From Eunapius fragilis (taxonomy: Eukaryota > Porifera > Demospongiae > Spongillida > Spongillidae), in NCBI GenBank assembly GCA_963681505.1, contig OY811991.1, positions 4,686,387 through 4,750,386 of the forward strand: DNA of 64,000 nucleotides. The letters run 5' to 3'. How positions within the stretch are numbered: position 1 is the first letter of the stretch; the number at the start of each line of letters is the position of its first letter. Positions 25,341 through 50,605 of the stretch are shown here, piece after piece. A model generated the notes under the pieces. That model did no database searches, was not told the DNA's origin, and was given only the letters and a program-made list of their open reading frames with translations. A program made the translations under genes and the position numbers.

Positions 25341-25480
25341 GTTCAAAATATAGCATTTGAAAAACTTGTACTGAATCAGTAACCATTCCATTTACATACG
25401 CATTACAATAAGTGAATACTACGAACAGTTACATAATACATATATGCCAGTAGCTTATATAAAGTTATTATTATTATTAT

Positions 25481-25850: not shown

Positions 25851-25869
25851 CCCTTACACATACACATCA

Positions 25870-26135
25870 ATGCATGAATACATGAATTTATATTATGTCT
25901 GTCAACCAGGGACAACCAATGAAGGTCCAGCTCTTGATAGCAGGGTGCTTGCACAGGACCTCACCAAAGTGTGGCTAAGTCTGCCATAAATGGAAGTAGT
26001 GTCCTGGGACTTGGTGCACCCCATGGGTATGGTATGGGTAGACGAGTGGCAAGACATGATATTGTTTCCCTAGCCTCAGCACCCTAGCAGCCATAAGTCT
26101 CTACTACTAGTGGTGTGCATCCAGCCCAACTCTTA
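25870..26135 (-). pseudogene. RLE-type retrotransposon tail fragment
   Basis: The minus strand reads ELGW near 26130 and, across frame changes, sequence matching the TYG.WG and LYGRLS...LVR tail motifs of the neighbours. Strongly decayed. Confidence 0.5.
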
Positions 26136-26279
26136 TTTTTATTATGATTAATTAGTTTCAGCTATAGTGCATGTGGTTGTTTTTTTTAATTAATATAATT
26201 AATAATACAATTCTAATTATTGAATGCACGTACAGGATAAATAAGTATTTGACTAGTAAACTATGTAACTATGTATGAG

Positions 26280-27205
26280 TCAACCAACTAAGTAGAGGTC
26301 TGAGACTTTAGCACGGGGACCTGCCCTTGCAAGAAATGCTCTGGCATTCGAGCGCACAAGGGAAAGGTTTAGTCTGGAATAAATGCTGTCCAGAGTGATG
26401 GAAGTGGAGGAGTTAACCTGGACTGAAAGGCGGGAAGCAAGTTTCTTGAATATGTTAGAGGCTAGTTGGCCCCATGCAGGCCCCGAATGATTCAACAACA
26501 AGGGGTATGCAACTCCAGCCTAGTTCTTCACAGATCCCTGAATTTGCTTGTATCTTTCGCTGTTCTGTGGCAAAAGCTGCAGAGCCTGCTGTGTGTCCCG
26601 CTTCGGAAACTATGTCAGGTTTTAGCGGAGACGACACAGATAAGTCGAACGCAGCCGGTTTGCCATTGATGCCCCATGCAGTTGTTGACTAGTATGTCTG
26701 CAGGTCTAGATTGTTTCTGGTCATGGCCAAGACCACTGCCAGCTTCTAGCTTAGGGTTGTATAAGGCTCTCTTGAAGAGGTGATGCAAGGTGTCGCGAAG
26801 GTGGTTGTGACGCGCAATTACATCACTACCCCTCTTGCAGGTTAGGGCGTGGTGAGCCTCAAGGGCTTTGGTTGGGCAAAGGACACACACAGAGCCAGGC
26901 TCACATAGCTGAATAAAAAGCCACCATTTGATGGCAAATTGACATTCGGATGGTGTTAAATGCAAGCCTAAGGCTGGTGATGGGGTAACACGCAACCAAG
27001 AGCTAGCATGTGGGGATGAGACGGAAAGAAGTCGGGCTCGGTCAGCCAGGGTGCTGCATTGCAAGCGAGATTGAAACTGTTTGTCTTCAAGATTCTGTGA
27101 CAAAACATGTCGATTGGTGTGGATGGAGTCAAAGGTTGATGAAAGAGCTTCGTCGGGAGAAACAAGGGCATTTTTTAAATATATATGTATGTGATGCACA
27201 CGCAT
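26280..27205 (-). pseudogene. RLE-type retrotransposon 3' half with CCHC, RPAD nuclease motif and tail
   Basis: The best-preserved copy of the second subtype. It reads ASSWLRVTPSPALGLHLTPS, a zinc pattern in CVLCPTKALEAHHALTC, then GSDVIARHNHLRDTLHHLF and SRPADILVNN (PD-type nuclease). After a frame change come KPAAFDLSVSSPLKPD, ELGWSCIPLVVESFG and, in a third frame, SRLNLSLVRSNARAFLAR. The RT domain is missing. It lies between the two PH gene copies. Confidence 0.75.
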
Positions 27206-27284
27206 AATATTTAAAGTAAAGAATAATTAATACATATACACAAACATGTGTGATCAACAGAAAAATCAGCTTATAATGAGACTC

Positions 27285-27480
27285 TGCCCTCATGTACTGC
27301 TAGGGCCATGCAGATTCCTGCTTCCTCGCAGGCACATGATAGCACTGCGCAGTATGGCAAAAGACAGCCGACATCTCAGCCAGCCCATAATATGCCTTGT
27401 CTTGCTTTCCAGATAGCAGATCAGCTAGTCGTTTGACAAAAGCGGTGGCTCTCTCCCCATTGCGCTAGATCCCTTTTTGC
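27285..27480 (-). pseudogene. RLE-type retrotransposon tail, first subtype
   Basis: The minus strand reads RLADLLSGKQDKAYYG, then in another frame WLRCRLSFAILRSAIMCLRG. This matches the tail of the fragment at 1954-2805. Confidence 0.65.
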
Positions 27481-27703
27481 TGCTACGACCACATATATGT
27501 ATTGTGCAGCAAGCAAATTCAGTCCTAACAAATTAATTTGGTATGTGAATATTCGTGTGAATATGCCTATTAAGGGTATCAAAGTACGACTCGATTGATC
27601 GTTGTTGGACAACTGAAATCATTCTGCACCGGAAGGCCTTGAATTAATCGTGATATAGCAACGCCGGGTTTCACTTCGCAGTGAGGTTCTCGAAACGCTG
27701 GGT

Positions 27704-28059
27704 ATGGCTGGCTTGTTCAAGTTTGATCTGAAGGCTCCACTACTTACAGGAACTCTTTCGAAACAAGGAAACCTAATGAAAACGTTCAAGAAACGGTTTT
27801 TTGTACTCTATCCCGACTTTCTGGTATATTACCACGACACCCGAACGTGGAATGGTGATGTGTGGAGACAATCACTTGCTGTAAGCTATAGGATTATATG
27901 TGGGCTATTAGAAACGTTTAGGATGTGTATGAATATCCACGTATCCATGCAGTGTCGCTCGGGTGCTGTATATCTGAAGAGCGCCACTTGTACCGCCGCT
28001 GATAATGAATGTCAATTTGGTATTTTGGTCACGGTTCCTGATCAACGCAACAAAAGGCG
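27704..28059 (+). CDS. PH-domain gene, exons 1-2 (first PH domain)
   Basis: ATG at 27704 follows a 5' flank shared with the duplicate at 24485. Exon 1 (27704-27880) encodes MAGLFKFDLKAPLLTGTLSK and FKKRFFVLYPDFLVYYHD. The intron is 72 bases (GTAAGC...ATGCAG). Exon 2 (27953-28059) encodes GAVYLKSATCTAADNECQ and ILVTVPDQRNKR and ends in phase 2 at GGCG|GTGAGA. Together with exon 3 this forms a PH domain, which acts in membrane or protein targeting. The protein has no signal peptide and should be cytoplasmic. The gene continues through very long, element-filled introns. Confidence 0.85.
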
Positions 28060-28184
28060 GTGAGATTAGCTACCCCCTTCCCCCACACGCCCACCTCTCT
28101 GTTCAATCATTCATGCGTTAGGTTATATATTAATACTAAGCTGCATGTGAGGGTATCAAATATATTCAGCAAGCGAGCTTTATC

Positions 28185-29700
28185 CAATACTATAATTTCC
28201 ATGCAACGTACGTACGTACCGGCGTACGTACGTACGTCCGTACGTACGTCCGCGTAACTCATTTATATACTCGGCTTAGTGCCTATTGGTTGCTAGGTAC
28301 GCGTACCTTACCTAGCAGCCAATAGGAACGACCACCTCCCACAAAGGTACATAGCAACGCGTACTTAGCGACCATGCCTGCCACAAAACCTACATGCCTG
28401 TACAGGTAATAATGTCATCACATGTAGAAAGAATAAAAGCAACGCTATTGTGGTTCACACTCAAGTCTCATCTACAAGCCGAGAACATGTAGTTACTATC
28501 TGACATAATAATTCCATGAAGTATTTGGATTGCGCGGGCATGTTTAGAGGTTGCGTAGTAACCGTATGTTTAATAGAACAGGTGGTAGATTATACATGCA
28601 ACATTGGGTAAAACAGTAAAAAAAGAGGAGCTAGGAGGTAGACCAACTGTTCATCTGGCAAATGAATAGCGAGGCGAATAACAGCGAGACGAATAATCAG
28701 CCCGTGATTTTTCACGGGGACACGCTATAGTCTAATACTATAATTTCCAACGTACATGTTGCTACTATAGGTATATGTACGCGTACCTAGCAACCAATAG
28801 GAACGACCACCTCCCACAAAGGTACTGACATAGCAACGCGTACTTAGCGACCATGCCTGCCACAAAACCTATATGCCTGTACAGGTAATAATGTCATCAC
28901 ATGCAGAAAGAAAAAAAGCAACATTATTGTGGTTCACTCTCAAGTCTCATCGTACAGGCCGAGAAAACATGTAGTTACTATCTGACATAATATAATGTAA
29001 TATTTGTATTGCACGGGCATGTTATAGAGTAACCGTACGCGTATGTTAGAACAGGTGGTAGATTATATATGCAACATTTGGTAAAACAGTAAAAAAAGAG
29101 GAGCTAGGAGGTAGACCAACTGTTGATCTGGCAAATGAATAGCGAGACGAATAATCAGCCCGTGATTTTTCAAGTAATTAAAATAATTTCCAACGTACGT
29201 ACGTCCGTGCGTCCGCGTAACTTATTTATAAACTCGGCCTAGCGCCTATTGGTTGCTAGGTACGCGTATCTAGCAACCAATACGAACGACCACAAAAATA
29301 CATAGCAACGCGCACTTAGTGACCATGCTTCATGCCTTTACAGGAGGTAATAATGTCATCACATGCAGTAACAATTAAAGCAACGCTATTGTGGTTCATG
29401 CACTCTCAAGTCTCATCGTACATGCCGAGAACATGTAGTTACTATCCGATAATAATAATTCCACGAAGTATCACTGCATGATAGTTTGGATTTACACTAT
29501 TTTTACTACTGATCAAATGAGGTACAAATGCGTTAGTACATGTGAATCAATACCGACATACACATTTGCACCCCATTTGAACAGTAGTAAACTTTCATGC
29601 AGTGTATTTGTATTGCGCGGGGATGTTATAGAGGTTGCGTATAGTAACTGCATGTTAGTACATTATATAGATGCAGCATTGGGTAAAAATGTATTGTAAG
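28185..29700. repeat. Three tandem copies of a ~0.45-0.55 kb repeat
   Basis: Copies start near 28185, 28730 and 29175. Each has a CGTAC-rich head, a hairpin-forming ATTGGTTGCTAGGTACGCG block, GTACAGGTAATAATGTCATC, AGTTACTATCTGACATAAT and GAGGAGCTAGGAGGTAGACC, ending ATCAGCCCGTGATTTTTC. The third copy is cut by the hAT-like element at 29706. Its ending motif reappears at 31336, beyond that element. Confidence 0.8.
28207..28256. repeat. (CGTA)n microsatellite
   Basis: Run of CGTA units with a few interruptions; self-complementary. Confidence 0.9.
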
Positions 29701-29705
29701 GGACT

Positions 29706-31156
29706 CAGGGGCGGATACAGGAATTTGGAAGGGGGGGGTCTAATAATTATATTCACAAGGGGGCAGAGCCCCAGAAACCAACGCCTTTTTATTATATCAA
29801 GCTCAAAATTCTTCACAAACATGTGCAACAAATATAGTTCCTTACTACATGCACACAACACTCATTATGAGACCATACATGCATGATCCCACAATACAAT
29901 CATATCACAACCAGTTACATGTAATTTTCATCACAATGCACATTATTTACATTTACTTAGAAGACAGAAATACATGTTACAGTTTAATGCATACAAATTC
30001 CAATATGAATTGTTAACAGAAAACTAACATTCAGCAAAGACAAGTTCACAGTCAGGTATACTGTTATACATGTATGCACTAATCAGCAAAAGGATTCGTC
30101 AATAGCATTCTTCGAGGGTGGCGATGTGAAAACTCTTCCACTACCTCTTCGGGGTCGATATTGATTTCCCTGTGGCACTTGAGGAGAGCTAGACTATTTA
30201 ATCTGTCTTCCTTCATAGTGCTTCGTAATGCAGTTTTAAGCTGTCTTAGAAGGCTGATGGATCTCTCACACTCACAACTTGTCACAGGTAGTGTAGTTAT
30301 GATGAAAAGGAGAGCATGAATGTTGGGAAAGAAATCCTTATCAGTATGCTTTAGAACCTTCTCTGGAGTGTCCAACTCATGTGCTTTTTCAGCTGATGGC
30401 ATGGAAATTTGTAGGTTGCAGCTGGTATGAAGTGCTTCTTTAGAAGGACATACATTTCATTATCAGTCAGGCTACGTTCTGACTTCAATTTAACCACCTT
30501 TCCAAAATCTCCTGTCAAAATAACAGGGTCTACATCATTGTTTCCACGTATAGTTGGCGTTTTAATGAGTGCAATACCCGCGCTGTTTTCAGGTAAAGAA
30601 ATTTGCTCGGTTTCTTGAATCTCTATAACAGCGTGTGGCTCGATTGCCTGCATATGCTCGACCATATGGTTGACCACAGCTGCTGGCAATGCGGTAGCGC
30701 TAACTGTTACAGCCATCGTTAGTGGTGTATCTGAGGTTTCGCTTGAAGAGCCACTAGCCTGATCTACATCGGCACCCGGGGCCGGGCCCTCTGTGGGGGT
30801 CGTGGCCGTGCCCGTAGAGACTCTACGTACACGACACAAGTATAGCGTAAATAGTTACATGCATGTATGATTAACAGGTTATAGAAGCAAGCATGGTGCA
30901 GAGAGATACTTACCGATCCAAACTAAAATAATCAGTTAAATTGCCTTCTTTTTTCCTCGCTTTACGCTTTTCGCCACCTTGCAACGGAATCGTGCTCTTC
31001 GAACGCTTCATAATATTGGAACGTGTGTCAATTAATTGCTTTTAAAATTAATTTACATTGCTTTAATTATTCATACTTTGTTAATTATTCATAGTTCAAT
31101 CGGAGCGAGGGGGGGGGTCTTTAGACCCCCTAGACCCCCCCCTGGATCCGCCACTG
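29706..31156 (-). mobile_element. hAT-like transposon, internally deleted, with intron-containing ORF
   Basis: The ends are CAGGGGCGGATACAG and CTGGATCCGCCACTG. On the minus strand, exon 1 (31011-30914) reads MKRSKSTIPLQGGEKRKARK and ends CG|GTAAGT. Exon 2 starts at 30822 and joins in phase 2. The reading continues to about 30395, then shifts to a frame (30402-30079) with FFPNIHALLFIITTLPVTSC, ECERSISLLRQLKTALRSTM and a C-terminus NPFAD. That is the hAT dimerisation region (CECERSIS...LR). The catalytic middle of the transposase is absent. No clear target duplication. It lies in the third tandem repeat copy, inside a PH gene intron. Confidence 0.85.
30079..31011 (-). pseudogene. Deleted hAT-like transposase with C-terminal dimerisation domain
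   Basis: Two exons (31011-30914, 30822-30079) with matching phase and a frame change at about 30395. The N-terminus is basic, followed by a Thr/Ser/Gly linker. The end is the conserved hAT dimer domain. The DDE part is missing, so it cannot be an active transposase, though the dimerisation domain could still be expressed. Confidence 0.75.
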
Positions 31157-31574
31157 AGGGTCTGGGAACCGTTTGCATTACATCACACTAACGTTTATGC
31201 TGCTCTTGGCGGGACGCCCACAAGAGGATGCAAAGAGTGATCCAAGTGCGCGAATCTCTTCGTAAAACAGTCAGCGAACGTGATTGGGTGATGTAGCACC
31301 GGGCATACATGTTAAAGACTATAAATAAATAAAAAATCAGCCCGTGATTTTTCTCGGGTGCACCTAGTGATTATACAATATGATGAAATCATGCATGCAT
31401 GCAGCATGAAATCATGAAATGTTTCATAAAAATAGGACCACCACAAAATAATTGTCGATTTCTAAAATTACGTGTCAGTACATCTGCCGGAATCGATAAT
31501 TTTGTGCCATTCTCACGTGCAACGAACTCGGTCACAATTAAATAGTTGGGCATAGCGTTAGTAATAATATTTAC

Positions 31575-31578
<4 letters not shown>

Positions 31579-31613
<35 letters not shown>
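31579..31613 (+). repeat. (T)35 run directly before an exon acceptor
   Basis: 35 consecutive T followed by GCAG and PH exon 3 at 31618. In the duplicate copy the same acceptor lacks the T run. It acts as an extreme polypyrimidine tract. Confidence 0.9.
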
Positions 31614-31615
<2 letters not shown>

Positions 31616-31617
31616 AG

Positions 31618-31784
31618 AAACCTACTGTTACGTGCTTCAGACGAGACTGAGCAGAGTGATTGGATCGCAGCCATATTAAAGGCCTCCCCCCCGGGAGCCA
31701 AGTACGGTGTATTCTCACTCGTACCGGCCCAGGTGAGCGATACCGTCGCCATCGACACCATGAGCAGCAAAAAGGAAGAGAAAG
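31618..31784 (+). CDS. PH-domain gene, exon 3 (end of first PH domain)
   Basis: Acceptor TTTTTGCAG; the phase-2 join to exon 2 makes Arg, then NLLLRASDETEQSDWIAAIL, the closing helix with the invariant Trp. A Ser/Lys-rich linker follows (MSSKKEEK). Donor AAAG|GTATAT at 31785, phase 1, which fits the acceptor at 46160. The following intron is about 14 kb and contains the complete 32322-43788 transposon. Confidence 0.8.
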
Positions 31785-32315
31785 GTATATATGCGTAGTC
31801 CGATGTGCCGTTAGTAATCAGACATCTCTCCAACCAGTGGATAATGACTCGGCGCAGTGTCGCAACCCAGCTGCCTTAATGTCGACAGCGTTCAGAGAAG
31901 CGATGACAGTAAATTCCAGCCAGGGTGAAGAGTGCGAAGTACATATCAGTACTTTGTGCGCATGCGAAAGCGTGGAACCTACTTTGCTTCAAGTCTGATA
32001 TTAGACATTAGTATAGCATGCATGTCATCTGAACTGCATGTTGTTGCATTGGTGTGACTACATGGAAGGTGAAAAAATAGACCACCACCGTCATAATAGT
32101 GACATATTATATGTTTCAACTAGTGATGCTTAGCAGAGTACATGCAGTGTCGACATAAATATTATCGATTACGAATATTAACAAGAAGTTCCCGTTATCT
32201 TCTTTCCTTTCACCCTGCATACATATTTTGCCAGTTTCCGGGATACCACTTAATTGATAAAATACATCACTTCTCTCAGATTTCAATTCTTATGAAGAAA
32301 AAGAAAATAAAACGT
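31785..32315. other. Intron sequence before the 11.5 kb transposon
   Basis: No exon or repeat recognised. A short open stretch near 31830-31998 has no splice signals that fit the gene. Confidence 0.35.
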
Positions 32316-32321
32316 TACTAG

Positions 32322-33090
32322 GGTCCGTGTAAGAAACCGCCACTCAATATTTCAATTGTTCAATTTATTGGAATTTGCAATTTTGACGCACTAATTGCCG
32401 ATTTTTGATGATATCTGTTATTTTCACTACGTGGATAATTGATCTAGCGATGTTTTTTCAAATTTTCAAATTTTCAATTAAAAATTGAAAAATTGAAATT
32501 TTGAAAAAGGCTTCGTGCGGGCATTGTTTAATTTTCCAATTTATTCCCTCTCACGATCACAGACCCTGCGGAATGGAACCGACGCGTTGACACCGGACCC
32601 TCCCCTTTGGGAACGAGGGCATATAACAAGCTTCAGTGCCATAGTTGAAGCTAGCCGCCACACCGTTCCATTTGCTTAGCTACACTCCGGCCCACATGAC
32701 ACTAGCCGACAGCTCTTTTTGTTTGGCAAGGTACTAGTAGCCACACATATTAATTAATACTGCTGAGCATGCTAGCTAGAATATCGCGTAATAGTGCAGT
32801 GTACTGACGCAGCCAATGGAAATAACAGTGGTTGCGATCAAAGCTAGTGTATGAATAAGAGTGCTATAAAGTTTGAAATTGCTGAAAATCTATGTGGAAG
32901 ATGAACAATTAGCAACCCTCTTGTCAGGACGCCATGGTTTAGGAGCAATTGGAGAGAGGTGTGCCGGACTTGAATACAGAGTCCTCACACCATATCAATG
33001 GGTCCATTGGGGAGGAGGGCATGTTAGTCCATTCAGGGTTGTGAACCAATTGTGCATGGTCATAAACTGTATTGCAAATTACATGCAGTC
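32322..33090 (+). repeat. Left terminal inverted repeat of the 11.5 kb transposon
   Basis: The outer ~440 bases mirror 43788-43350 with few differences. They include an AT-rich self-complementary block of TTTCAAATTTTCAA type near 32455-32510. The inner part (32870-33085, AACCAATTGTGCATGGTCAT) mirrors 41003-41220. Confidence 0.85.
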
Positions 33091-33189
33091 TTTTTCAGTT
33101 CTGTGCGATGTCAAATAACTAAATTTATTGATTATAAAGCAGCATTCAGCAACAAAATATAACAAGTGGTATATCCACACTATATAATT

Positions 33190-35448
33190 CTACATGCATG
33201 TGGTGCCGGCCTGCGTGGTTGATAGTCGTTCCGTTAAACTAATGTACAGAAGTAAACTATCTCTCAACGGATTGTAGTTGTTATTGCTTATGTTGTGGAA
33301 AATACTTTCGAAGTCAGGGAATGACAGCAGGAAATTACGATTCCTTTCTTCTCTCAAGTCATCTCTGCCCGTCAAAGGATCGCATCCAAATATGCTCTCC
33401 CGTGTGAGGTGACCACCATATGACTCAAAATGGGATACAGCATGTTCACATTCCGGGATGATTGCTGGGGGCAACTTCACTGCACGCGTATGTGACGCGC
33501 GTTCATTTGGAATCCCCTTACCTGAAAGTAGATATATATAGAGAGAGAATAAATATAATGTACCGTATGATACAATGATGCTATACATATATGCATGCAA
33601 TTATATGTATGCATGTGCTTATTGCTCACCAGGAATATAATGACAATTCCACGCTCCTACAAAATATTTGATACCCACAACTGCAACATTCAGTGAAATC
33701 CATGACACGCAATAACGATGAACCATAGAGTCCAGACTAAAATATCCATGCTCTTCCATCTGAATAAGGCATGATTTAATTGGATAATTCACTCTGCGAT
33801 TAACTTCAGGCCAGTACCGTTCGATTGCATGATTCTGTATGCATATAAAAAGACAAGGTATTGCTTTGCATGTATGCATATATGTGTCCTACCAGTGTTG
33901 ATGTCGTTTGCCTATGAGGTGGTTTCTCGACGTTGTGACGCAAGTGAGCCAACGTCTCCTGGATAAATAGACAAAGTGTCCACTCCCTCCCATGGTCAAC
34001 ACGTATTTGATCGAAGAGTCCATGTTCCAGTAGGATGGGTCTGTATTATGGTGGCATTTTATATATGTCAATGGTTACAAAATTATTATATGTACAAATA
34101 CTGCAATACAAGTACAAGCATGCAAATACTCTATACATGCATGAAGAACTGACATACAATAAGCAAAGCTAAATTCCACTCATAGACCACCAAATAAAAT
34201 TGTGCACAAGCTGAGGTCCGTTTTCACTGCTTTAATCCCATATTACAATATACAATAATATAATTAATAATAAATTTTATAAAATATTGCAATACCTCAA
34301 CAGATGCTTGTATATCTCGACTGTATTTTTCACTGGCATGCAGATGAAACCCACTATCTTTCCTGAATAGCCATCGATAGCACATATGTGGGTCAGGCCA
34401 TACATAACTAACTTTTCATTTTGGTCAATATGCAGTTTTTCACCAAAGTACTCAGCTCTGTATGGACATGGGTTCAAGCTGCCTGACGCTCCAGTTACCC
34501 TCATTTGGTGGTAATCGGGACGAACAACTCTCAATGCCTCACCAACCCGTGCTTCAGAAACCTTTAGTCCTTGAGAAGCAAGAAATCCACACATAGTCTT
34601 CCGTCCATATGAGGGACCAACCTATGCAATGAAGCCATGGGATCCTCACAAAAAACACGTTATGAATAATTTTCCATGGAATCCTTGCGTGATTGAGAAG
34701 TAAAATCACACAAAAATCACATGCGTCTGATTTTAAAGTTCAATCACACGACGATTTTACAGAGGATAACTAATTGAGCCCTTAAAATACTTTTTTTTTT
34801 TCTGTGAGGGGGGGGGGGGGGGGGGGATGCAGTGTCACCCCAGAGTGAGGTCGGCGGCCATGTTTTTGGACCTATTTAATTACAAAAATGTGTCTATTCT
34901 GTTGTTACCACGCCCGCAGCCAGGTAGTCTGGCTGGGTGGTGGTGGGGGTGGGGGAGGGGTGTCGGTGTCGGGACGTGTGGTGGAGATAGCAGGGGTACA
35001 CACTATACGTTTCGGGCCGATACAATTACTTCGGGCCTGGTATAACGGAATGTATAAATACTCCAAAAGGGCCACATTAGATATTATTATAGTGGCCATG
35101 ACACTTAATTCCTTATACACCTTTAAATTCGCACTTGTAAGTAGGCTTATTTCTCCGATGTTAATTAGAGGGCGATAATTGGATCTCCATGCAAAAACAC
35201 ATAGCATGCATGCTGCTTACCATTGCAACCCCGGCCATCACTGCCTCCTCCATTTGAGTTTGAGATAGATTTAAGAGTTTGTGAATATCTTTTTCGTGGC
35301 AGAATCTTTGGATACTGCGCAAGCTAAAGCCCGTACTATCCGCGCACCCTTGCAATTGTTTTAGCTCTTCGCTTAACTCTTTGTGAGAAACGCCATCGTC
35401 AAGAATTCTTTTCCTGATGTACCCTTCATATTCTTGCAACAGCGACAT
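33190..35448 (-). CDS. Five-exon DDE / integrase-core transposase
   Basis: Exons on the minus strand are 35448-35221, 34621-34296, 34040-33893, 33834-33630 and 33521-33190. All introns are GT-AG and every phase matches (0, 2, 0, 1), giving 412 residues. The N-terminal ~130 residues look like helix-turn-helix DNA-binding segments (GFSLRSIQRFCHEKDI; TMCGFLASQGLKVSEARVG). The core has the catalytic triad spacing of a retroviral-type integrase fold: Asp in EKLHIDQNEKLVMYG, Asp in IRVDHGREW, Glu in NHAIERYWPEVNRR. The C-terminus ends QAGTTCM and a stop at 33190. It would cut and join the terminal repeats of its own element. No stop or frameshift was found, so it may be functional. The second gene of the element lies divergently about 0.2 kb away. 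Confidence 0.85.
34780..34826. repeat. Poly-T and poly-G tracts in transposase intron 1
   Basis: T run near 34790-34801 and a G run of about 18 near 34807-34825, in the intron between transposase exons 1 and 2. Confidence 0.85.
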
Positions 35449-35660
35449 ATTCTATTTGGAATACTGCTGTGTTAATTCGCACGCATACACGAGCTCGTGG
35501 TTATTAAAGCTACTGCTACGGCAGTGCTCCGCTGCCTAAGTTATTAAAGTGCAAACGTGCTCCACGTCATATAGTTACTCAACGACTGACTGAAATAAAA
35601 GACGCATTAACTTTCAATAATCATTTTGTACACGTGTTGCAGCCGACTCACTTGGCGAAT
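35449..35660. promoter_or_regulatory. Divergent promoter region between transposase and RING-like gene
   Basis: About 212 bases separate the two ATGs, which face away from each other. The region must hold both start sites. No TATA box is obvious; it contains short inverted CACGTG-like motifs (CTCCACGTCA, GTACACGTG). Confidence 0.5.
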
Positions 35661-36913
35661 ATGTCAGAAGCTGATAAAACTGTAGTGTTGTCCCTAGGGG
35701 AGCGAGAATACACCATCTTAGCTCCGGAGGGAAAGTTGTCGACTAGGCAGATCAGTCAGATGTTTCAGGTTAGAGTTACATTACAATCTGATCATGGTTT
35801 TCAATCATATTCTGCCTTTAACGTGCAGATCCAACCTCAAGGCGTGTGGTTGAGGTGCCAGTTTTCTAATCGGGCATATTGGCCCACTGAAAATGGTGAA
35901 TTCAACCTGAGCTCTGAGGGAGAATACACACAACTTATTGTTGAAGGACCTCCCGCCGTATCACCATATCTCCCTGGAGCTGAATTGACATTCGGTTCTC
36001 CAATTCTGCCATCTGGGCCATCAAACCCCCCATCTTTAACTATGTCGGCAATAGGCCTACCGAAGGCAGCATCTCGCAGCTCCTATTCAGGATTTCAATC
36101 CGTCGTATCAACGGCTTCCTCGGCGAGAAGAAAAGGATCTGTCACAATTAAAATGGTGCTGGCAAAGATGATTCGCCATACTGACAAAATACAATTTGAG
36201 AAGCGAGAGCAAATGTTTATTTCTATCACTGAAGCTACTGCTACGCTTCCATACATCCTTGCCCAAGTAAAGGAGCTGGCGGGAGAGGAGCACATTATTG
36301 TTACTTGCGATGGCCTTGAAATTAAAGATTCGAGTGGAACGGAAGGTATCATGTAGATTGTCATAATATCATGCAGTTTACTACTTACACCTTTTTAAAA
36401 AAATGTATAGGATTAAAGTTTTGGAAGGCAAGCGCACGAAAGTTCTACGTTGTTCCTGAAGAAGATCTCCAACAGGTAATTCAGCCGTCGGAAGAGCGTG
36501 CGGCAAAACGGCCAAGGATGACGCTAGAAAGTGCAGTTGCTTCTCCGAGTACCACTCCGTCTGCATTAGAACAGCTAAGGCTCGACGTTGCAACGATCAA
36601 GGATAATACAAACATGATGCTGACTCTCACCCGAGATTTGAAAATTCCACTAAGCCTGAAACTGCTTCTTAATGAGTCTTTTCAGTGCCATATTTGTAGG
36701 CATTGCATGAAGCCCCCCATTATCCTCTCGAAGTGTTGCAAAAATATAATCGGATGTGAAGAATGTGTGAACCGATGGTATTCGGGTCCAGATGCACTAA
36801 CAAAGTACTGCCCTCGTTGTAGGTGTGAACGAGGCTACAATGAAACGATGAGGGTCTTGGGACTCGACGACCTTCTTACCGGTGTCAGGTCATTGTCAGA
36901 TGATGCGGAATAG
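35661..36913 (+). CDS. RING/U-box-like protein carried by the transposon
   Basis: Exon 1 35661-36345, a 65-base intron (GTATCA...TATAG), exon 2 36411-36913; the phase-1 join makes Gly. 395 residues. The N-terminal half is a beta-rich region of unknown type followed by a Ser/Pro linker and GSVTIKMVLAKMIRHTDK. The C-terminal region has a Cys-rich module: CHICRHCMKPPIIL, SKCCKNIIGCEECVNRW and YCPRCRCERGYNETM. The Cys spacing is that of a RING-type zinc module, without a clear His, and resembles E3 ubiquitin ligase modules. It ends LLTGVRSLSDDAE. It is probably an accessory transposon protein; a ubiquitin-ligase role is inference. Confidence 0.8.
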
Positions 36914-36924
36914 AAACTGTAACT

Positions 36925-37036
36925 GTTAATGTCTTGCTTTGCATATTTCGTGCTGTATAATGAAATTTGCGCGCTAATTGAGGTCTTGCTTTGCATATTT
37001 CGTGCTGTATAATGAAATTTGCGCACTAATTGAGGT
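36925..37036. repeat. ~54 bp tandem duplication after the RING gene stop
   Basis: TCTTGCTTTGCATATTTCGT followed by GCTGTATAATGAAATTTGCG occurs twice in a row with one substitution. It may lie in the 3' UTR. Confidence 0.85.
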
Positions 37037-37069
37037 TTGCACTATGGGGGGTTGATTATCAAATGGGAA

Positions 37070-37260
37070 CGACATCAGTAGCACAAGGGTCAATTACAGT
37101 ACAATAGTGCTATGACAAGCTAGCTAGAGGTCTTTCTCGCTATTTGATTAACACATGACATCAGTAGCACAAGGGTCAATTACAGTACAATAGGCTATCT
37201 GCTAGGGGAGGTCTTTCTCACAGATGCACTATTCGACTATTTGATTAACACATTGCAGAC
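37070..37260. repeat. ~85 bp imperfect tandem duplication
   Basis: ACATCAGTAGCACAAGGGTC and the following TATTTGATTAACACAT occur at about 37070-37156 and 37157-37255. Confidence 0.85.
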
Positions 37261-37984
37261 TCATCCAAGTCACATGCAGGCTGGTGGAGGGTGGACAACA
37301 CACCAGTCGCTTCTAGACAAAGTAAGAACTGGCTTTGATCCAAGGACATATAGAGCTTGCCCTCATTGCTCAGACCAAAAAATACATGTAAAATAAAAAA
37401 AAAGACAAACACTCAACATGCCCTGTCATTCAGGTGGGTGGTCTGCCCCTAACCAGAGCTCATACGTGAAAGTGGAATCAGTGAAGGGAATGGAACAGCC
37501 TCATCTGTGTGAGAGGGGGAACTCTAAGTATTAAAGCAGGTCATAGCCTGGAGCATGAGGATGTTGTTGGACTACAAAACGTGAATATGCCAAATTAGAG
37601 ATAAAAAGCAGCAGCAAGGGGACAAAAGCCAAGACCACTAAACCACTGTCTGAATTGTGCTTGCTGCCAATTTTAATCAGGAATAACCACTGCTATGCAA
37701 AACAACATTACATCATCATTATCAGCTAATAATAGTCTGCCCACAGGTAGTATATTGCGAAGAAGGGCAAAGGTCACATGAGGTCAACTTTAAGCAGAAT
37801 CTAGGACAGCTGCACACAGTACGCACAAAGTCCACAACTGGAACACCTACAATGTCTAGGTTGGATGTCTTATTTATTATAACTGTGAACAGAGCATAAT
37901 GCATACATCAAACACGTAAAACATAATGACTTAAAACATTACAAATCTTTAAGGACATAGCATCTGTGCTATCACCAGTTACAT

Positions 37985-38710
37985 AAAGGTGAACCAGGAC
38001 ATCTAAAATATGCTTGGCCCTGTTGGAGTTGGTTGCATGTTGTGACATAGACTCCACTGCCTATGTCCCCAAAGCACCATATGCCTTGATCCACCTCCAT
38101 GGGGACATAAACCCAACCAAGCTCCTAGCTTGCATTTTTGATAATTGGCTCATGCTTCCTTCATCGATCTCAGTACCTCTGGCTGCCACATCTGCTGTTA
38201 GCCTGCTTCCAAAAAAACTTTGGAGTTAGGCGGTTATGTTACAGACAGGTCAAAGGCTGCAGGCTTACTCATACAACAATTAGGAACCAGGATGTCAGCT
38301 GGGCGAGAATGACTGTTCATGAGTGAGGTTGCTTCCTGTCTCCCTAACTTTCAGGCAGGCTGTTAAAATGCTATCTGCTGCATATACTCATTAAATTCAA
38401 ACTTTTTAGGGGGGAGGGGGGGGGAGCATACGCCCCTTCTGCCGCCCATGGTCCTGTGAAAGGCCTCAGCTAAGGTATCCATGCAGATTATTGTGGCAAG
38501 TTCTTACTTTCCACCATGCTTGTAGGTGAATGCATGATGGCCAACCAGGACACAGGGGACAAATTGAGCCGGAAGGTGTCAAGTGTCAAGGCCCAGCCAA
38601 CACTTGATGGCCACCTGCAACCTGAGGGCTGGAATCAAAGGCCTAGCCCCTCAAAGAGTGTTTTTAAACAGATGATTTTCAGCTCAGGGAGGCAAAGAAT
38701 CTGCTGGTGA
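37985..38710 (-). pseudogene. RLE-type retrotransposon 3' fragment nested in the 11.5 kb transposon
   Basis: The minus strand reads LQVAIKCWLGLDT and VGHHAFTYKHGGK (CCHC region, one Cys lost) near 38660-38520. Then, past frame changes, RPADILVPNCCMSKPAAFDL near 38300-38240 and a tail with ELGWVYVPMEVDQG in broken frames. No RT. Confidence 0.65.
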
Positions 38711-38871
38711 ATGACAACTGAGGGAGCCCCTACCTAAGCTGAGCTCTGCCTGCTGCCAACGGCAAACACAAGCTATTGACACAGATCACAAAGTCCAACT
38801 TTGCACTTGAGCATAAAGCAATTTCAAAGTTAATAAGGTTCAGAGAGCGCAAGGCTACACCTACACTAATG

Positions 38872-39712
38872 TTATGAAGGTGGTATTGTGTGTGTATATG
38901 TGTGTATGCAAGTGTGTTCTGGAATATTTGATATGGCTCACCTTTGGACTGCAGCCACACCCCTCTAAACTATGATGTTCATATTATGCTGCACCAGAAA
39001 AAAATAAATCCCGCCATTTGCGAATAGTTCATCCTCCTCTGGCCCCTTCTCACAAATGAGGACACATCAGGAGATGATGACTGCAGAGTTCCATGATGAC
39101 CACATCCACCCAGGCCTCAACTTACAATGGTATGAAGAAATTGTCAAATAATCCGGCTATGATAAGCTGTTGGGCACACACATGCCAATGCTCTGAGCTG
39201 CAAGGCAATTTATTTCTTTGAAATTCAAACACATGGAATGCTCATCCAGGATTGATGGGCCTGACACTGTGGGTGCCAGACAGTCATGTAAAAAGGGGTG
39301 CTGTATTAACATATATGGTTTTGCCTGATAGTCCACCTCTAACAGATGGGTGCTACCTGGGTGAGCTGAAGCATTCCATGTGATTGAGTTTCAATTGCCT
39401 TGCAGAGCATTGGCATGTGTGTGCCCAACAGCTTATCATAGCCGGATTATTTGACGATTTCTTCATACCATTGTAAGTTGAGGGCTGGGTGGGTGTGGCC
39501 ATCATGGAACACTGCAGTCATCATCTCCTGATGTCCTAATTCGTGAGGAGAAGGGGCCAGAGGAGGATGAACTATTCGCAAATGGAGTGATTTATGTTTT
39601 TCAAGCAGCATAATATGAACAGCATAGCTACAGTCCAAAGGTGAGCCATATCAAATACTCAAGAACACACTTGCATACACATACCACACACACACATACA
39701 TACACAATACCA
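38872..39712. repeat. Large foldback F5
   Basis: The left arm (about 38872-39245) pairs with the right arm (about 39365-39712); for example TATTTGATATGGCTCACCTT near 38925 mirrors AAGGTGAGCCATATCAAATA near 39640. The loop is about 120 bases. TG/CA runs occupy the outer ends. Confidence 0.85.
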
Positions 39713-39728
39713 CCCCTTCATTATTCTA

Positions 39729-40765
39729 CAAGTAAATAAAAAACCTTCTCTATGAGAAAGTTGGTGGGATATAGGATTTGAAGGCAATGGTGGTGTAAAA
39801 AGCAAGGAAACAAGGGTCTGTAATAGTAAGGGAAAATGTCATAGTCCTATATTTAGCACACGAACATAGTATATGCTACAAACGGGCTAAATGTAGGACT
39901 ATGACATTTTCCCTTACTATTACAGACCCTTGTTTCTTTGCTTTTAACTCCACCATTGCCGTCAAATCCTATATCCCACCAACTTTCTCATAGAGAAGGT
40001 TTTTTATTTACTTGTTTCATTCATTTTTTCTAAAGTTGTTCATGCACATTATTCCGATGCGTAATTGATCTGTAATTGATCCGTAATGTTCAGCCACCAA
40101 AGCCAAGCTTAGTAAGAGTAGGTAGCTAATTACATACCTTTGAATAACTTTATCGGTTCGGGTAGTACTCTTTCGATAGCCTCGTTTGATTTTGCAGGGT
40201 ACGCTTAGCCTTCCCGTACCGAACTCTCTTCGCCAGTGAGCAGATTCAGGACTCTCCCAATAACGTTGCCTTTTAGCGGACCGTTTCTTTTCGCTCGGAT
40301 CATTTCTATTATGGGTACCGCCATTTTTAGATATCTAAAATTTTATCTAATTATGCGTCTTACCTATACCGTATAGTCGATTGTTTACCATAATATAAAA
40401 TCGGCTATTTTGTATGAAAGCGGCTCTTCCAGCTTATTCTGAAGCTATTGGTGCAATTTTCAATGTTTAAAAGTGTTTCTATCCCGAGTTATGCGTTGCC
40501 AAGAAGGAGAAGGAGTAGGAGACCATGTTCCGGGGCTGGGTACGAGGACGGGCAGTACCCTTTTGTTTTCTACAACCGTGCGTTTCTATGACATAAAATA
40601 AAGACGAAACTGCTCATTTTTAACTTCTAGTTCGATTGATATAACAAGCTAAACGATCCGATCGTCGGGAGCCGGTTTTGTTAAGAGACGGGTCGCGTAT
40701 TTTTAATGAGTTCAAAGTCAGGGTCAAATCCTATATGGAAGTTTCTAGCGAAACTTCCGATTGCA
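39729..40765 (+). mobile_element. Foldback-headed element, copy B
   Basis: A palindrome at 39729-40014 (CAAGTAAATAAAAAACC... ...TATTTACTTG) is followed by a diverged body and the end hairpin GGAAGTTTC...GAAACTTCC near 40738-40760. Order and orientation match copy A. The body is shorter and the small ORFs are broken. Confidence 0.7.
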
Positions 40766-41002
40766 AATGCAAATATGCACACTCAGTTACGCACAACCAC
40801 TCATTCCTTGTCATGCTTGTCTATTCATGCGGTGACACTGTATGTAAATGTGCTTAGCAGTTATTAAATATAGTGTGTGCCTCCACCTACAAACAAAACT
40901 GCTGCCATTGATCATGTCTAACAAGGTATCAGTAATGCATCTGCAATATTAGGGAACACACTTTTGCGCATGCAAGTAATTTGTTACGCCATGACTCAAT
41001 AC

Positions 41003-41220
41003 AGTTTATGACCATGCACAATTGGTTCACAACGCTCAATGGACTAACATGGCCTCCTCCCCAACGGACCCATTGATATGGTGTGAGGACTCTGTATCCA
41101 AGTCCAGCACACCCCTGCAGTCAAACAGTTGGCTGCTAAACCATGGCGTCCTGACAAGTGGGTTGCTAATTGTTCATCTTCCACACAGATGTTTAGCAAT
41201 TTCAAACACTCTTATTCATA
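41003..41220 (-). repeat. Inner part of the right TIR of the 11.5 kb transposon
   Basis: GACCATGCACAATTGGTTCA and the sequence to about 41220 are the reverse complement of 32870-33085. Confidence 0.85.
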
Positions 41221-43139
41221 CTTTTTTTTTGCATCTGTGCAGTACTTTTTTGTTTACATACTAGTTGTATTCGCCGCCTATTTTCTATACATCGAACCCT
41301 GGCACACCCTACTAATACATTACATACCCTCAAGCCACCATGCATATAAGAATTTCTCCAACGACACATACGTGCAGGCATGCACATGCAGTACCTTTAA
41401 TTCGCTAAACGAGGTCCGTCGATGTTTTTAGAAAAGCCTGTCACTACAATTGCTGAAATGGCTCAAATGAATTAATTAATTTAAAAAGGTTGGCCCCTAC
41501 GGCATTTCATAGTCCCTCTGCATACCGGACACGCCCACCATTTCTGAAGGGGGGAAAAAAAGGTGTACGCGTTTGTTGAACCCCAAAGGATTTGAACCAT
41601 GTAAATTGTGATTTTCAATTGTGATCACATGGTGATCTTTACAGGAGATATGGCTGACTGTAACCTCCCTCTTCACACATTTCTACTACAAATGTTCACC
41701 ATCATCACATACACAAGCTATTAGGATATCCTGTTTCTGACTGTCAGATGTTACATTGAAGCTGTAAGTGGGTTCTGAAGGGTCGCAGTGCATGTATGTG
41801 GTGCATGGTGGTGTGTGTGTGTGTGTATGTGTGTGTTTTGCATGTGCGTGATGGTGGCCTGGTAGGTCATTCACATGAGCTAATGACATAGAGCCCTACG
41901 TGTAATGCAGTCCAACTTTGCACATGAGTGCAAAGCAATTTTGCAGCTCAGCTCAGAGCCCAAGGCTCAGAGCGCAAGGCTAAAAATCCTATATGTGATG
42001 GTAATATTGCTCTTCAGAAATGTGGTGTGTAATATCCTTTGGACATGTCTCTGCAACTTACTCCTTGGGTGGTGTGCTGCTGAATAGAGTTTATGATAGG
42101 GAACCCAATGCCATCACTATGGGGTCATTCCCACAAGTTTGTTCAGCATTGGGGAACCAGCCTTAGTGTTGGGTTCCCCATTCTCACATGTGCACAAGAG
42201 AATTGCCCCGTCTCCTGTTGTCTATTTTGCTAATTGGACAATCCATCGTACTTTACACCATATATGCCTGGTAACAAAGAAGAGGCTGTATGTACACACC
42301 TACCCTGTTGGCAACAAAGAACATTCACCAGATTGTCTAGATCTGCTTTAAAACTTCATGATCAAGATGGAGGGACGCAACAAGTGGGTCTTGCACAAAG
42401 TTTTTAGTGGGGGCATTACTATGTGAGTGTGTGTATGTGTGGTAGTATGTGTGCTTATCTCTTATGATCAATTCTTATCCATTTACATTTTGCACACATT
42501 CTCAGCTCACTAATGCACATCATCGACACACAAATTCTTATTTCCATGCAGTCTCTGAGAGTGTTACAAGTTGTGTGCAGACATACCCAGAGACATGTGG
42601 CAGAGAAGCTTGCTTGCACCATTGGTGAACTTTGTGGTCATTGGGATAGGGTTATGCACGCACTGGTGCCATTGACTTGCATGCATGATGGGAGTGGGGG
42701 TGTGGTCACCATGACAACCACTTTTTTGTGGTTGTAGTGGATTTTTTAAAACCCACATCTACCTCACTTCCAGCACATGGTGGCTGGTCTGGCTCACATG
42801 AAACAGTGGGCTGGTGTGGCTGGCTACCTTGCCATATAGAATTCAGGGGGACAGACAGAACTTAACTTTGTCCTGAGTTTTAAAATTGGGTACACATACT
42901 TGCATTGAATGCACACATTTATGAAATACAGGCAATACAGACAATGGGAAAAGGAAAATATGGATAAACAGGACTTGTGATGGCACCAGTTTAGAAACAG
43001 GACAATCCGAGGGCAAGAAATGTGCACATAGGAGACCGACATAACACCTTCTCCTCCCCCCCCCCCTCCCGGATGGGGGGGGGGGGGGGGGCAAACAGGG
43101 GTGCGGTCATGATTAGTTGAGACCTCGGTTGTGTTCACA
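41221..43139. other. ~1.9 kb segment interrupting the right TIR
   Basis: It has no counterpart in the left TIR. It contains GT-rich runs (41811-41837), a segment similar to 38780-38860 (AGTCCAACTTTGCAC...AGAGCGCAAGGCTA at 41900-41985), and adjacent C and G runs at 43052-43091. No ORF recognised. Confidence 0.5.
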
Positions 43140-43788
43140 TTTATTAATTCAAGCTACTAGCTTCGATCGCAATTTGCATTGGCAGCGTACTAGTACTATT
43201 AAACGTTACAGCAAGCAAAAGTAGCGGGAAATGTTTAACAAAATAGCTCAACATAACTGAGCTCCTTGTGTCCGTCTGTAACTGTAAAGCGCACGATATT
43301 CTAGCAAGCTCAGCTGTGCGATCGAGTATTAATTAGTGATAATATCTGTGGCTACTATTACCTTGCCAAGCACAAAGAGCTGTCAGCTAATGTCGTGTGG
43401 GCCGAAGTGTGGCTAAGCACATGGAACGGTGTGGCGGCAGCTGCTATACTACTACGCACGCATAATCATGGCACTTAAGCTTGTAATATGCCCTCGTTCC
43501 CAGAGGGGAGTGTCCGGTGTCAACGCGTCGGTTCCATTCCACAGGGTCTGTGATCGTGAGAGGGAATAAATTGGAGAATTAAACAATGCCCGCACAAAGC
43601 ATTTTTCAAATTTTCAATTTTTCAATTTTTAACTGAAAATTTGAAAATTTGAAAAAACCTCGCTAGATCAATTATTCACGTAGTGGAAATTACAAGTATC
43701 ATCAAAAATCGGCAATTAGTGCGTCAAAATTGCAAATTCCAATAAATTGAACAATTGAAATATTGAGTGGCGGTTTCTTACACGGACC
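43140..43788 (-). repeat. Right terminal inverted repeat (outer part) of the 11.5 kb transposon
   Basis: Reverse complement of 32322-32855 with scattered differences and indels. Outer end CACGGACC at 43781-43788, followed by TACTAG. Confidence 0.85.
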
Positions 43789-43794
43789 TACTAG

Positions 43795-45966: not shown

Positions 45967-46159
45967 TAGTTATGGCAATTCAAACAAAGAGCATTTTATA
46001 ACTTCTTATGATACGACATTTTCTCATGAACTGTCCCATATATATAAATAAATTGATATGCACATCTCTGGATACTATCTATTCACCTTTGGATTCCATT
46101 GGGCATGTACACATTAAGCCTTGCTCCATGTGTGCGCCATGATCTTCATTTGCCTTCAG

Positions 46160-46293
46160 TACCAGTGCCAAGCTCCTCACAATCTGGGGAGAAGAGAGGG
46201 TTTCTGTACAAGGAAGGTGGGAAGAAGAAGACGTGGAAGCTGAGATATGTCACCACTCACAAAGGCTACTTCGAATACTACAGGAACGCAACG
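46160..46293 (+). CDS. PH-domain gene, exon 4 (start of second PH domain)
   Basis: Acceptor TTTGCCTTCAG (ends 46159); the phase-1 join to 31784 makes Val. It encodes GEKRGFLYKEGGKKKTWKLR and YVTTHKGYFEYYRNAT, the first strands of a PH domain. No good GT donor keeps the phase of the next exon. ACG|GCGAGT at 46294 would be a GC-AG intron in phase 0. Unspliced, the frame stops at 46331. Confidence 0.75.
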
Positions 46294-46552
46294 GCGAGTT
46301 CTTTGACCCGGATGTACCCTGTGCTTGAGTGATGCCTGTATGCACATACTTGTACTTGTAAATGACCACACAAGAGTGAACAATAGGACAAGAGCCCTGT
46401 CAAAGAATTGAATTAGATTCCAGTGTTAATAGACGATGTGTAGGGTATGGATAGAGTCTGGAATGTCTGGGGCTATACGTGTAGCTGTATGCATGAATGG
46501 AAGCAACATCATAATGGCTAGGGCTGTAGTCTGGTCTGGCTACTGTACAGGG

Positions 46553-47020
46553 GTATGGTACCACTAGTACCCAGGGCCCAAGGATGAATGTACAGGGGGT
46601 ATGGTACCACTAGTACCCAGGGCCCAAGGATGAATGTACAGGGGGTATGGTACCACTAGTACCCAGGGCCTAAGGATGAATGTACAGGGGTATGACACCA
46701 CTAGTACCCAGGGCCCAAGGATGAATGTACAGGGGTATTGCACCACTAGTACCCAGGGCCTAAGGATGAATGTACAGGGGTATGGCACCACTAGTACCCA
46801 GGGCCCAAGGATGAATGTACAGGGGTATAGTACCACTAGTACCCAGGGCCCAAGGATGAATGTACAGGGGTTATGGCACCACTAGTACCCAGGGCCCAAG
46901 GATGAATGTACAGGGGTATGGTACCACTAGTACCCAGGGCCCAAGGATGAATGTACAGGGGTATGGTACCACTAGTACCCAGGGCCCAAGGATGAATGTA
47001 CAGGGGTTATGGTACCACTA
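46553..47020. repeat. 45-46 bp minisatellite, about 10 copies
   Basis: Unit ACCACTAGTACCCAGGGCCC plus AAGGATGAATGTACAGGGGT. Because 45 is a multiple of three, frames stay open on both strands, but no exon role is seen. It lies in PH intron 4. Confidence 0.95.
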
Positions 47021-48538
47021 GTGTGGTTATTTGGGCTCTCATTTGTGAAGGCAAATGCATGCAGTAAAAATAGTGGGAACCCATCTACAGTATGTGGCAA
47101 GTGGCGGACCACTTTTGATGGTCCTAGGGAGTCTGTTCACTGAGCCATGATTGTGGGGGGGTGAGGGGGGGGGGGGGGGGGGGCTGTTGGACAATTGTCC
47201 AATTGTCACGGGGAACGTACATTCCTTTACGTTGGTTATAAAGAAGATTGCTATAAGCATATTAGTAACAGCTTAGTATGGTGGGGCATGGTACATGTAC
47301 GTAGTGTGGCACTTACCTCATGTTTACATGGGAGGGTTGCATGCAGGAATGATCCTTGTGAATTTAGTATACATGTAAAACTATATGTCTCTAACCATAC
47401 TATATACCTTCCAAATGTTGTGGCTTCTGCCCCCTTCATGGTACATCGTTTCTGTATGTGCATTGTTGTTCTTACATATTTGGGGTAAGTGCTTTTCCAA
47501 CCAGTACAAAACCAACCCGAAACGTCTGTAGGATAGTCCAAATTGCTTCAAATTCAGCATGTAAACATGTGTACATAGATATGGAGGGGGTCCTTTCTAC
47601 AGCTGTTGCACGTTTCGTGCCAATGGTATGGGCAAACGGTATCCCATTGCATCTACATGTATGGGAGGTGGTGGGTGCCTGCATCGACTACTGTTTACAT
47701 GTAATTTGGACTCAACTACAGAAGGTTAGGTCTGCTTAGTACGTGAATTCATACGTGTTATGTGCCACCCATACACATTGTTTATTCCTAATGTTAACGT
47801 AAACATATTGACATAAATTACTTTCCCATATTTGGATTCCCAGGCTTGTGGCTTACGTTACTAACCACGTACACCACGTACACGGCACGATGTTGATTTA
47901 AGCCATTCCACCTGAGAAACAAAACATTTCCTCTTATATAGGATACACATGTACACAGGCATGATATGTCTACCATAAATAGACCCTTCCCTCATAGAGG
48001 TGAGGCAAACCAAGCTATAACTGCATCTGGAGGCAGTGGAAGTAAAAATAGAAATAAAGTTCAAAGCTTATCACTTTTAAGGGGTCTATTTTTACATGTC
48101 CCCTGCCCAGTAGGTAGAAAATGTGGTTGATACCCATAAAGTGCTTTTACATGTACAGTTTCTTTCCTGGCATGCCCTGTTGCCAAAGGTAACAGGATGT
48201 GGGCTGTGGCCTGACAGGCACGTGGCACCGCCCCCTCCCACACAGTACTGTGCCAGTTGCTATCAGTACAAAGCACACTTACAACTTACCACATTCCACA
48301 TCCTCACATCCTCATGGTTGTGAGGTCATATCCAATGACCTGAGTAGTTTGTCGGCCCCTACAAAAACAAGACCATTTCCATTTATGGTATGAAGTTCCT
48401 CCTATTTATATCCTCCTTCATAGTCTTCTGCTGTTGTACAACATTAGGCTGTGTAGGGCTGTATGTATTGCACTTACAGCGTACACAGGAGTTGGCTGCA
48501 CTTTGTTATTGCTTGCCTGTTTTATTGTCTACTGGCAG
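47021..48538. other. PH intron 4, right part
   Basis: Contains a G run at about 47155-47183. No exon or element recognised before the acceptor at 48538. Confidence 0.4.
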
Positions 48539-48599
48539 GATTTGAAACCAATCCGAAAAGTGAAGCTTGAAGATGTGATAATCACGGTAGCAGAGCCAG
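48539..48599 (+). CDS. PH-domain gene, exon 5 (middle of second PH domain)
   Basis: Acceptor TCTACTGGCAG (ends 48538). It encodes DLKPIRKVKLEDVIITVAEP, the middle strands of a PH domain. The strong donor CCAG|GTAAGG (48600) is phase 1, but exon 6 needs phase 0, so either a further small exon is missing or the weaker phase-0 donor ACG|GTAGCA (48587) is used. The frame also runs on into the 21 bp repeat. Confidence 0.65.
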
Positions 48600-48639
48600 G
48601 TAAGGAGTTTGGGATCAACCAATTTTCGGTAAAACTACT

Positions 48640-49140
48640 TACCCATGGGCCACACCCCGCAGGTCCTACCCCACACCCCACGGGTCCTACCCCACACCCC
48701 ATGGGCCCTACCCCACACCCCACGGGTCCTACCCCACACCCCATGGGTCCTACCCCACACCCCACGGGTCCTACCCCACACCCCATGGGCCCTACCCCAC
48801 ACCCCATGGGTCCTACCCCACACCCCACGGGTCCTACTCCACACCCCATTGGTCCTACCCCACACCCCACGGGTCCTACCCCACACCCCACGGGTCCTAT
48901 CCCACACCCCATGGGTCCTACCCCACACCCCATGGGTCCTACCCCACACCCCATGGGTCCTACCCCACACCCCATGGGTCCTACTCACCCCATGGGTCCT
49001 ACCCCACACCCCACGGGTCCTACCCACCACATGGGTCCTACCCACCACATGGGTCCTACCCCACACCCCACTGGTCCTACGCACCCCATGGGTCACACCC
49101 CACACCCCACCCACACCCCGTGGGTCACACCCCACACCAT
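48640..49140. repeat. 21 bp minisatellite CCCCACACCCCATGGGTCCTA
   Basis: More than 20 units, mostly of CCCACACCCCATGGGTCCTA type, with ATG/ACG alternation and shorter units near the right end. It begins about 40 bases after exon 5. All forward frames stay open; the exon-5 frame would read a Pro-His-Pro-Met-Gly-Pro-Thr heptad. Confidence 0.95.
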
Positions 49141-49414
49141 ACAGGTGCTCCTATGTATTTATTTGTTCATGTGGTTATGCATGCATGATGAGAGAGACGG
49201 GGTCATTTATTAATTTCACTCAGTTCACTGGTATATACATATATATTTATATATGTTTTTTGCTTTGTTGTATACTGTACCTTGTGTATCAGGACTTACG
49301 GTAGTAGGTCCTATGTAGGATTGGCTCAGTAGGCGTGGTTTTGGATCGATCAAATTATGCCAGCCTTTCCTGTAAATGGGTATGTATGGTAATATGCATG
49401 GTACTAGTCTGAGC

Positions 49415-50556: not shown

Positions 50557-50605
50557 TGGTGTCAGGAGTGGGATCCTTTCTCTAATGCAGTGGCAGTGAG
50601 CGGAA

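Follow-up and report, generated by a model that had tools for sequence, protein, structure and literature searches.

The window analysed here, a 64,000-nucleotide stretch of the genome of the sponge Eunapius fragilis (assembly GCA_963681505.1, contig OY811991.1, positions 4,686,387 to 4,750,386), contains a DNA transposon of 11,467 bp with a transposase gene and a divergent gene for a RING-like protein. The explanation that best covers the observations as a whole, at a probability of roughly 0.85, is an apparently autonomous IS3/IS481-like transposon with a RING-like partner, an element of the type that gave rise to mirror-image copies moved in trans. What is new is a set of 14 gene-less copies that carry the right end of the window element at both sides and share a single inner breakpoint.

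Ends, copies and mirror-image derivatives

The termini of the element read 5'-GGTCCGTG on the left and CACGGACC-3' on the right, giving GG..CC ends, and an exact TACTAG stands on each flank, as described in an initial annotation of the window. The transposon is real, and its insertion as one unit produced a 6-bp duplication, which confirms the observation made there. A search of the 219-Mb genome with a 24-nt end pattern, allowing up to 2 mismatches, gave 64 matches, 58 of them mismatch-free, whereas the reversed pattern used as a control gave none. Further copies with the same ends, which the annotation had proposed to look for, are thus present. The 64 end matches resolve into 25 inward-facing pairs within 20 kb and 14 unpaired ends. 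Fifteen of the pairs, the window copy included, were read whole and 10 were not; L022, L023 with L024, L026, L027 and L028 were left uncounted, having no inward-facing second end within the stretch examined. One of the 25 pairs (C7, 16.7 kb) is possibly part of an inverted duplication and not a copy. The GGTCCGTG..CACGGACC termini were found in all 15 whole copies, and 13 of these are flanked by perfect 6-bp duplications of 12 different sequences (TAAAAG occurs twice). The 14 other whole copies measure 6.1-8.0 kb; the size of 11.5 kb first reported is true of the window copy and not usual for the family. Some gene-less copies lie in neighbouring pairs, with 7 bp between L014 and L015 and 80 bp between L009 and L025. 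At L022 and C7:3172858-3201498, four ends are arranged like an inverted duplication of a copy-bearing segment, which may be a feature of the assembly.

For the empty-site test the host flanks were joined at one copy of the duplication, and 12 of the 15 whole copies were used (L014, L015 and L020 were omitted). Scoring of 40 of 1122 candidates yielded 41 rows, 40 of which span the junction by at least 60 nt on both sides at 93-99% identity. These 40 are repeats elsewhere that belong to four of the 12 sites (L010, L011, L017 and L019) and, to judge by these spans and identities, are empty relatives of these occupied sites. The window copy's own empty site was not found by searching its flanks, because these are unique. 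The empty sites sought in the annotation were hence recovered for part of the family but not for the window copy itself.

The terminal inverted repeats of the window element consist of an outer and an inner block, defined as BLAST pairings under an expectation value (E) limit of 1e-10. The annotation had given repeats of about 0.8 kb; matching over hundreds of bases is borne out, but not as a single block, as about 2.1 kb of sequence interrupts the right arm. Neither protein gave a match in the 14 other whole copies (tblastn, E 1e-3), leaving the window copy as the only one of the 15 with genes. Both ends of all 14 are nearer to the right end of the window element (about 92-99%) than to its left end (88-91%, with one end at 95%). 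With the copies oriented alike, the short arm ends at window position 42096 in 14 of 14 and the long arm runs further inward; L018 has one further separate match inside this breakpoint. Pairwise identity among the gene-less copies has a median of 96.6% over 91 pairs and a lowest value of 88.8%, and the arm blocks within one copy are mostly 97-100% identical (minimum 86%, in one L010 block). Probably, one inverted duplication of the right end founded the mirror-image family, which was then amplified in trans, and the window element may be its source. In Foldback-type and Galileo-type elements, which belong to other transposase groups, very long inverted repeats likewise dominate a gene-less element. 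The mirror copies resemble these in lacking genes and having very long inverted repeats, but differ in that their two arms derive from the same end of a gene-bearing relative that has been identified, and one breakpoint is common to all. The arrangement of the mirror copies also suggests the minimal set of ends that the transposase accepts.

The same data can be read in another order, with the window copy as a recombinant: an autonomous left part with the genes would have been joined, through recombination or gene conversion, to the right half of a mirror element and then inserted as a unit, making the mirror family older than the 11.5-kb form. The right end of the window copy is indeed nearer to the gene-less copies (mostly 95-98%) than to its own left end (89.8%), and the full 1-kb left end recurs solely at locus C9 among the scored matches. 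Yet a single perfect duplication flanks the whole unit, and the right half of the window element readily accounts for the inverted duplication of the mirror copies. A recombinant origin is held to be unlikely, although it deserves serious consideration. It agrees with most of the preferred explanation and alters the order of events.

Transposase and RING-like genes

The transposase gene lies on the minus strand and comprises five exons with GT-AG introns, encoding 412 residues, in line with the complete multi-exon DDE transposase of that length proposed earlier. In the comparison with Pfam profiles that the annotation had suggested, the window transposase matched rva_4, 'Integrase core domain', at E 2.5e-16. 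This was the sole match at E <= 1, and Integrase_H2C2 gave none at that limit. Relatives of the transposase numbered 75, those with names coming from sponges, cnidarians and fishes, and the closest named one is from Ephydatia muelleri (65% over 75% of the length). D142, D200 and E239 show at least 90% conservation among the relatives aligned. An Amphimedon relative, P0003, is 50% identical to the window transposase, and its structure model (mean predicted local distance difference test score, pLDDT, 92.8) places an RNase-H-like core between a helical N-terminal region and a tail of helices, with IstA, TnsB and retroviral integrases as top structural matches. Weak helix-turn-helix matches were obtained in the N-terminal region of transposase relatives. 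The NCBIfam IS3 model was matched by three of four relatives (2.4e-5 to 0.0079) and the IS481 model by two of the four, in each case below the cut-off; one of the four matches neither. PDB sequence searches with the window transposase and the A3 profile returned nothing meaningful.

The RING-like gene lies on the plus strand, 212 bp from the divergent transposase gene, and most plausibly encodes 375 residues in three exons. Its 60-nt intron at 35769-35828 is in frame and easily overlooked. A model of 395 residues that retains this stretch was set aside: the C5 equivalent has a stop, and the Ephydatia relative P0079 lacks the stretch. The cysteine spacing of the window protein is C-x2-C-x12-C-C-x5-C-x2-C-x14-C-x2-C. 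A RING profile was built from 16 sequences: the exon of the window gene together with 15 relatives, of which one is without the domain. Against the PDB it gave 11 sequences at E <= 1, nine of them RING proteins, with TRIM2 at the top (E 0.003). In a RING-profile search of proteins, the 7997 candidates with the most words in common were scored. The named relatives of the RING-like protein are from Ephydatia only, Ephydatia muelleri being nearest, in a search that reaches relatives sharing words. A single-sequence fold of P0079 had a mean pLDDT of 33.2 and was not used.

The two genes adjoin divergently at three further loci of the genome, C5, C6 and C20. At C5 both frames are open and the exon layout is that of the window, and the C6 pair is decayed, with frameshifts and stops. 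Between the window and C5 the transposase is 76.8% identical, with a ratio of nonsynonymous to synonymous substitution rates (dN/dS) of 0.11. The RING-like protein is 63.5% identical, with proportions of nonsynonymous and synonymous differences (pN and pS) of 0.21 and 0.76; here dS is saturated. These substitution patterns indicate that both C5 frames are under purifying selection relative to the window. A genome search found the complete transposase and RING-like DNA of the window element in the window only, C9 aside. The C9 locus matches the left end of the window element at 996 of 997 bases before a run of 200 N, and it may be a second gene-bearing copy. The window element is apparently intact and autonomous.

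The RING-like gene might instead be a passenger that plays no part in movement. Varied extra genes are borne by other transposons of the same broad type (TET/JBP and alpha-kinase genes in fungal IS3EU, according to the available text of PMC12730594), a transposase locus at C7 is without a RING-like match, and no named cnidarian or fish relative of the RING-like protein was found, though transposase relatives were found there. Against this stand the recurrence of the divergent pair at C5, C6 and C20, the exon layout common to the window and C5, and a pN below pS in the RING-like protein; a mere passenger is rather unlikely. The conserved partner points to ubiquitin control of transposition.

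Several observations weigh against an autonomous element with a RING-like partner. Of complete copies with genes a single one is resolved, the sequence at C9 being interrupted by its 200 N, and the C7 transposase locus has no RING-like match in the 8.5 kb examined. Clear ends could not be set for the relatives at C5, C6 and C20, where no terminal repeat flanked by a duplication could be made out; 6-bp duplications are accordingly shown for the window's family only. Within that family L020 has no duplication, and that of L015 agrees at 5 of 6 bases. Because 40 of 1122 candidates were scored, the eight other tested sites are not shown to lack empty relatives. The structure model covers the relative P0003 and not the window transposase. 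The RING-like protein of the window has no RING match at E <= 1 in the Pfam scan, P0078 and P0079 fall under the Pfam cut-offs, P0080 matches nothing, and the top RING E-value among the 16 profile members is a weak 0.006. The divergent gene reported in the initial annotation is present, but its RING match is weak, and the label 'RING-like' is a fair one for the 375-residue protein and not certain. A chance or artefactual structure can be dismissed: although some related loci contain runs of N, the window is without any N, the duplication is exact and many copies have duplications of their own.

Proposed mechanism and relation to known transposons

Movement would be by cut-and-paste, as we infer from the sequences. 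The window transposase would bind the long terminal repeats, excise the element and insert it into target DNA at a 6-bp stagger; repair by the host would turn this stagger into the 6-bp duplication. The RING-like and transposase genes could be driven by a shared two-way promoter. The RING-like protein would most likely be a helper of the ubiquitin-ligase type, whose target would be either the transposition complex or a restriction factor of the host. On one occasion, an inverted duplication of the right end, with its inner breakpoint at window position 42096, would have replaced the left end and the genes, and the same transposase would then have recognised the resulting element with two right ends and amplified it in trans. 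With its many gene-less copies that can be tracked, this apparently intact animal transposon of the integrase-like kind makes transposition directly testable in cells.

As described in the available text of PMC10045372, the termini of complete IS3EU families are always TA..TA and their duplications usually 6 bp long, and GingerRoot elements have 6-bp duplications and termini that are mostly TA..TA, occasionally TG..CA. The window element resembles these groups in its IS3-like, integrase-core DDE transposase (rva_4 in the window protein, an integrase fold in the model of the relative), its 6-bp duplications (perfect in 13 of 15 whole copies) and its terminal inverted repeats. These groups have no HHCC zinc domain before the core; the window transposase gave no Integrase_H2C2 match at E <= 1, and the relative's model has a helical start. 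On the other hand, the element has GG..CC ends rather than TA..TA or TG..CA, long interrupted terminal repeats and a RING-like partner gene; the word RING is absent from the available text of PMC10045372. Compared by published descriptions, IS3EU/GingerRoot is the nearest published group that can be named. The element works like IS3EU, but membership is unproven, because the termini depart from the TA..TA rule. The earlier choice of IS3EU as the closest superfamily accordingly fits the transposase type and the 6-bp duplications and not the termini.

Extra genes in IS3EU-type elements are known already. In the text available for them, fungal TET-positive IS3EU elements have 6-bp duplications, TAYGG..CCRTA termini and genes for a TET/JBP dioxygenase and an alpha-kinase, the latter in opposite orientation to the transposase (PMC12730594), and Styx of Zymoseptoria has four coding sequences (PMC10853768). 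The window element is like both, so far as these sources go, in having 6-bp duplications and additional genes beside the transposase; it is unlike the fungal TET-positive elements in that their extras are TET/JBP and alpha-kinase genes, their ends TAYGG..CCRTA and their hosts fungi. Literature searches on a RING partner and on sponge IS3EU, in which full texts were not examined, turned up no published RING-like partner. IS481EU elements, as the available text of PMC10045372 describes them, have 4-, 15- or 25-bp duplications, TNT..AYA (TGT..ACA) ends, one protein and parabasalid hosts. The window transposase is likewise of the IS3/IS481 kind, two animal relatives matching the IS481 model below the cut-off, but the 6-bp duplications and GG..CC ends both differ from those of IS481EU. 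Zisupton makes 8-bp duplications (PMC12730594, available text). The 6-bp duplications of the window element do not agree with this length, given for one of the KDZ elements (Zisupton, Dileera, Kyakuja), and rva_4 is the one Pfam match of the window transposase at E <= 1. Ginger1 and Ginger2 make 4-bp duplications, again a length other than the 6 bp found here. A tentative and rather doubtful proposal is a separate animal transposon group, with GG..CC ends, 6-bp duplications and two core genes, for an integrase-like transposase and a divergent RING-type ubiquitin ligase. The ligase would be required either for movement or to disable host control, and the mirror-image derivatives would show that transposition takes no more than two copies of the same end.

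Features of the element and its surroundings

Coordinates of the features are collected in the table. For 36914-43788, the frame listing alone gives 12 frames of 75 residues or more.

Table. Features of the transposon in window coordinates
Feature	Position	Strand	Remark
Left target-site duplication, TACTAG	32316..32321	.	sequence read
Whole transposon, 11,467 bp	32322..43788	.	exact ends and flanking duplication
Left terminal inverted repeat, outer block	32322..32752	+	89.8% to 43340-43788, 449 columns
Subterminal A+T-rich hairpin, left end	32454..32508	.	putative transposase binding site (possible candidate)
Left terminal inverted repeat, inner block	32871..33074	+	90.5% to 40997-41207, 211 columns
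Transposase exon 5 (stop ends at 33190)	33190..33521	-	
Transposase exon 4 (E239)	33630..33834	-	
Transposase exon 3 (D200)	33893..34040	-	
Transposase exon 2 (D142)	34296..34621	-	
Transposase exon 1 (start at 35448)	35221..35448	-	
Intergenic stretch, 212 bp	35449..35660	.	presumed two-way promoter
RING-like gene exon 1	35661..35768	+	
RING-like gene exon 2	35829..36345	+	
RING-like gene exon 3	36411..36913	+	cysteine-rich RING-like domain
Fold-back segment	38874..39721	.	parts also in gene-less copies shown in the comparison; probably a nested or captured repeat
Right half common with the gene-less copies compared	38887..43788	.	pieces of about 79-98% identity
Palindrome, 130-bp arms, 96% complementary	39728..40015	.	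probably a nested small element, with a relative close to the gene pair at C5
Right terminal inverted repeat, inner block	40997..41207	-	pairs with 32871-33074
Stretch of ~2.1 kb, right arm only	about 41208..43339	.	part from 42096 outward found at either end of the other 14 whole copies
Extent of the short arm of gene-less copies	42096..43788	-	shared inner breakpoint 42096 in 14 of 14
Right terminal inverted repeat, outer block	43340..43788	-	the other 14 whole copies have this type at both ends
Matching subterminal hairpin, right end	43602..43656	.	putative transposase binding site (possible candidate)
Right target-site duplication, TACTAG	43789..43794	.	sequence read

The initial annotation had placed the element in a host intron, which is unproven: a PH-domain reading frame was found by Pfam scan at 46057-46332 and PH-like fragments lie to the left, with no gene model joining them. 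The fragments on the left are repeated exon pieces on the plus strand at 24440-31798, mutually similar by eye; for two of them a Pfam search at E 0.001 returned nothing. Together with the frame at 46057-46332 they possibly form a tandem gene array around the element. At 30079-30456 on the minus strand, a hAT-family dimerisation domain marks a probable hAT transposon remnant. Several low-complexity repeat stretches within 46564-56107 read as long open frames. The long open frame at 50600-54238, with reverse transcriptase, RNase H, H2C2 and rve domains, is a long-terminal-repeat retrotransposon polyprotein, Ty3-like by domain order.
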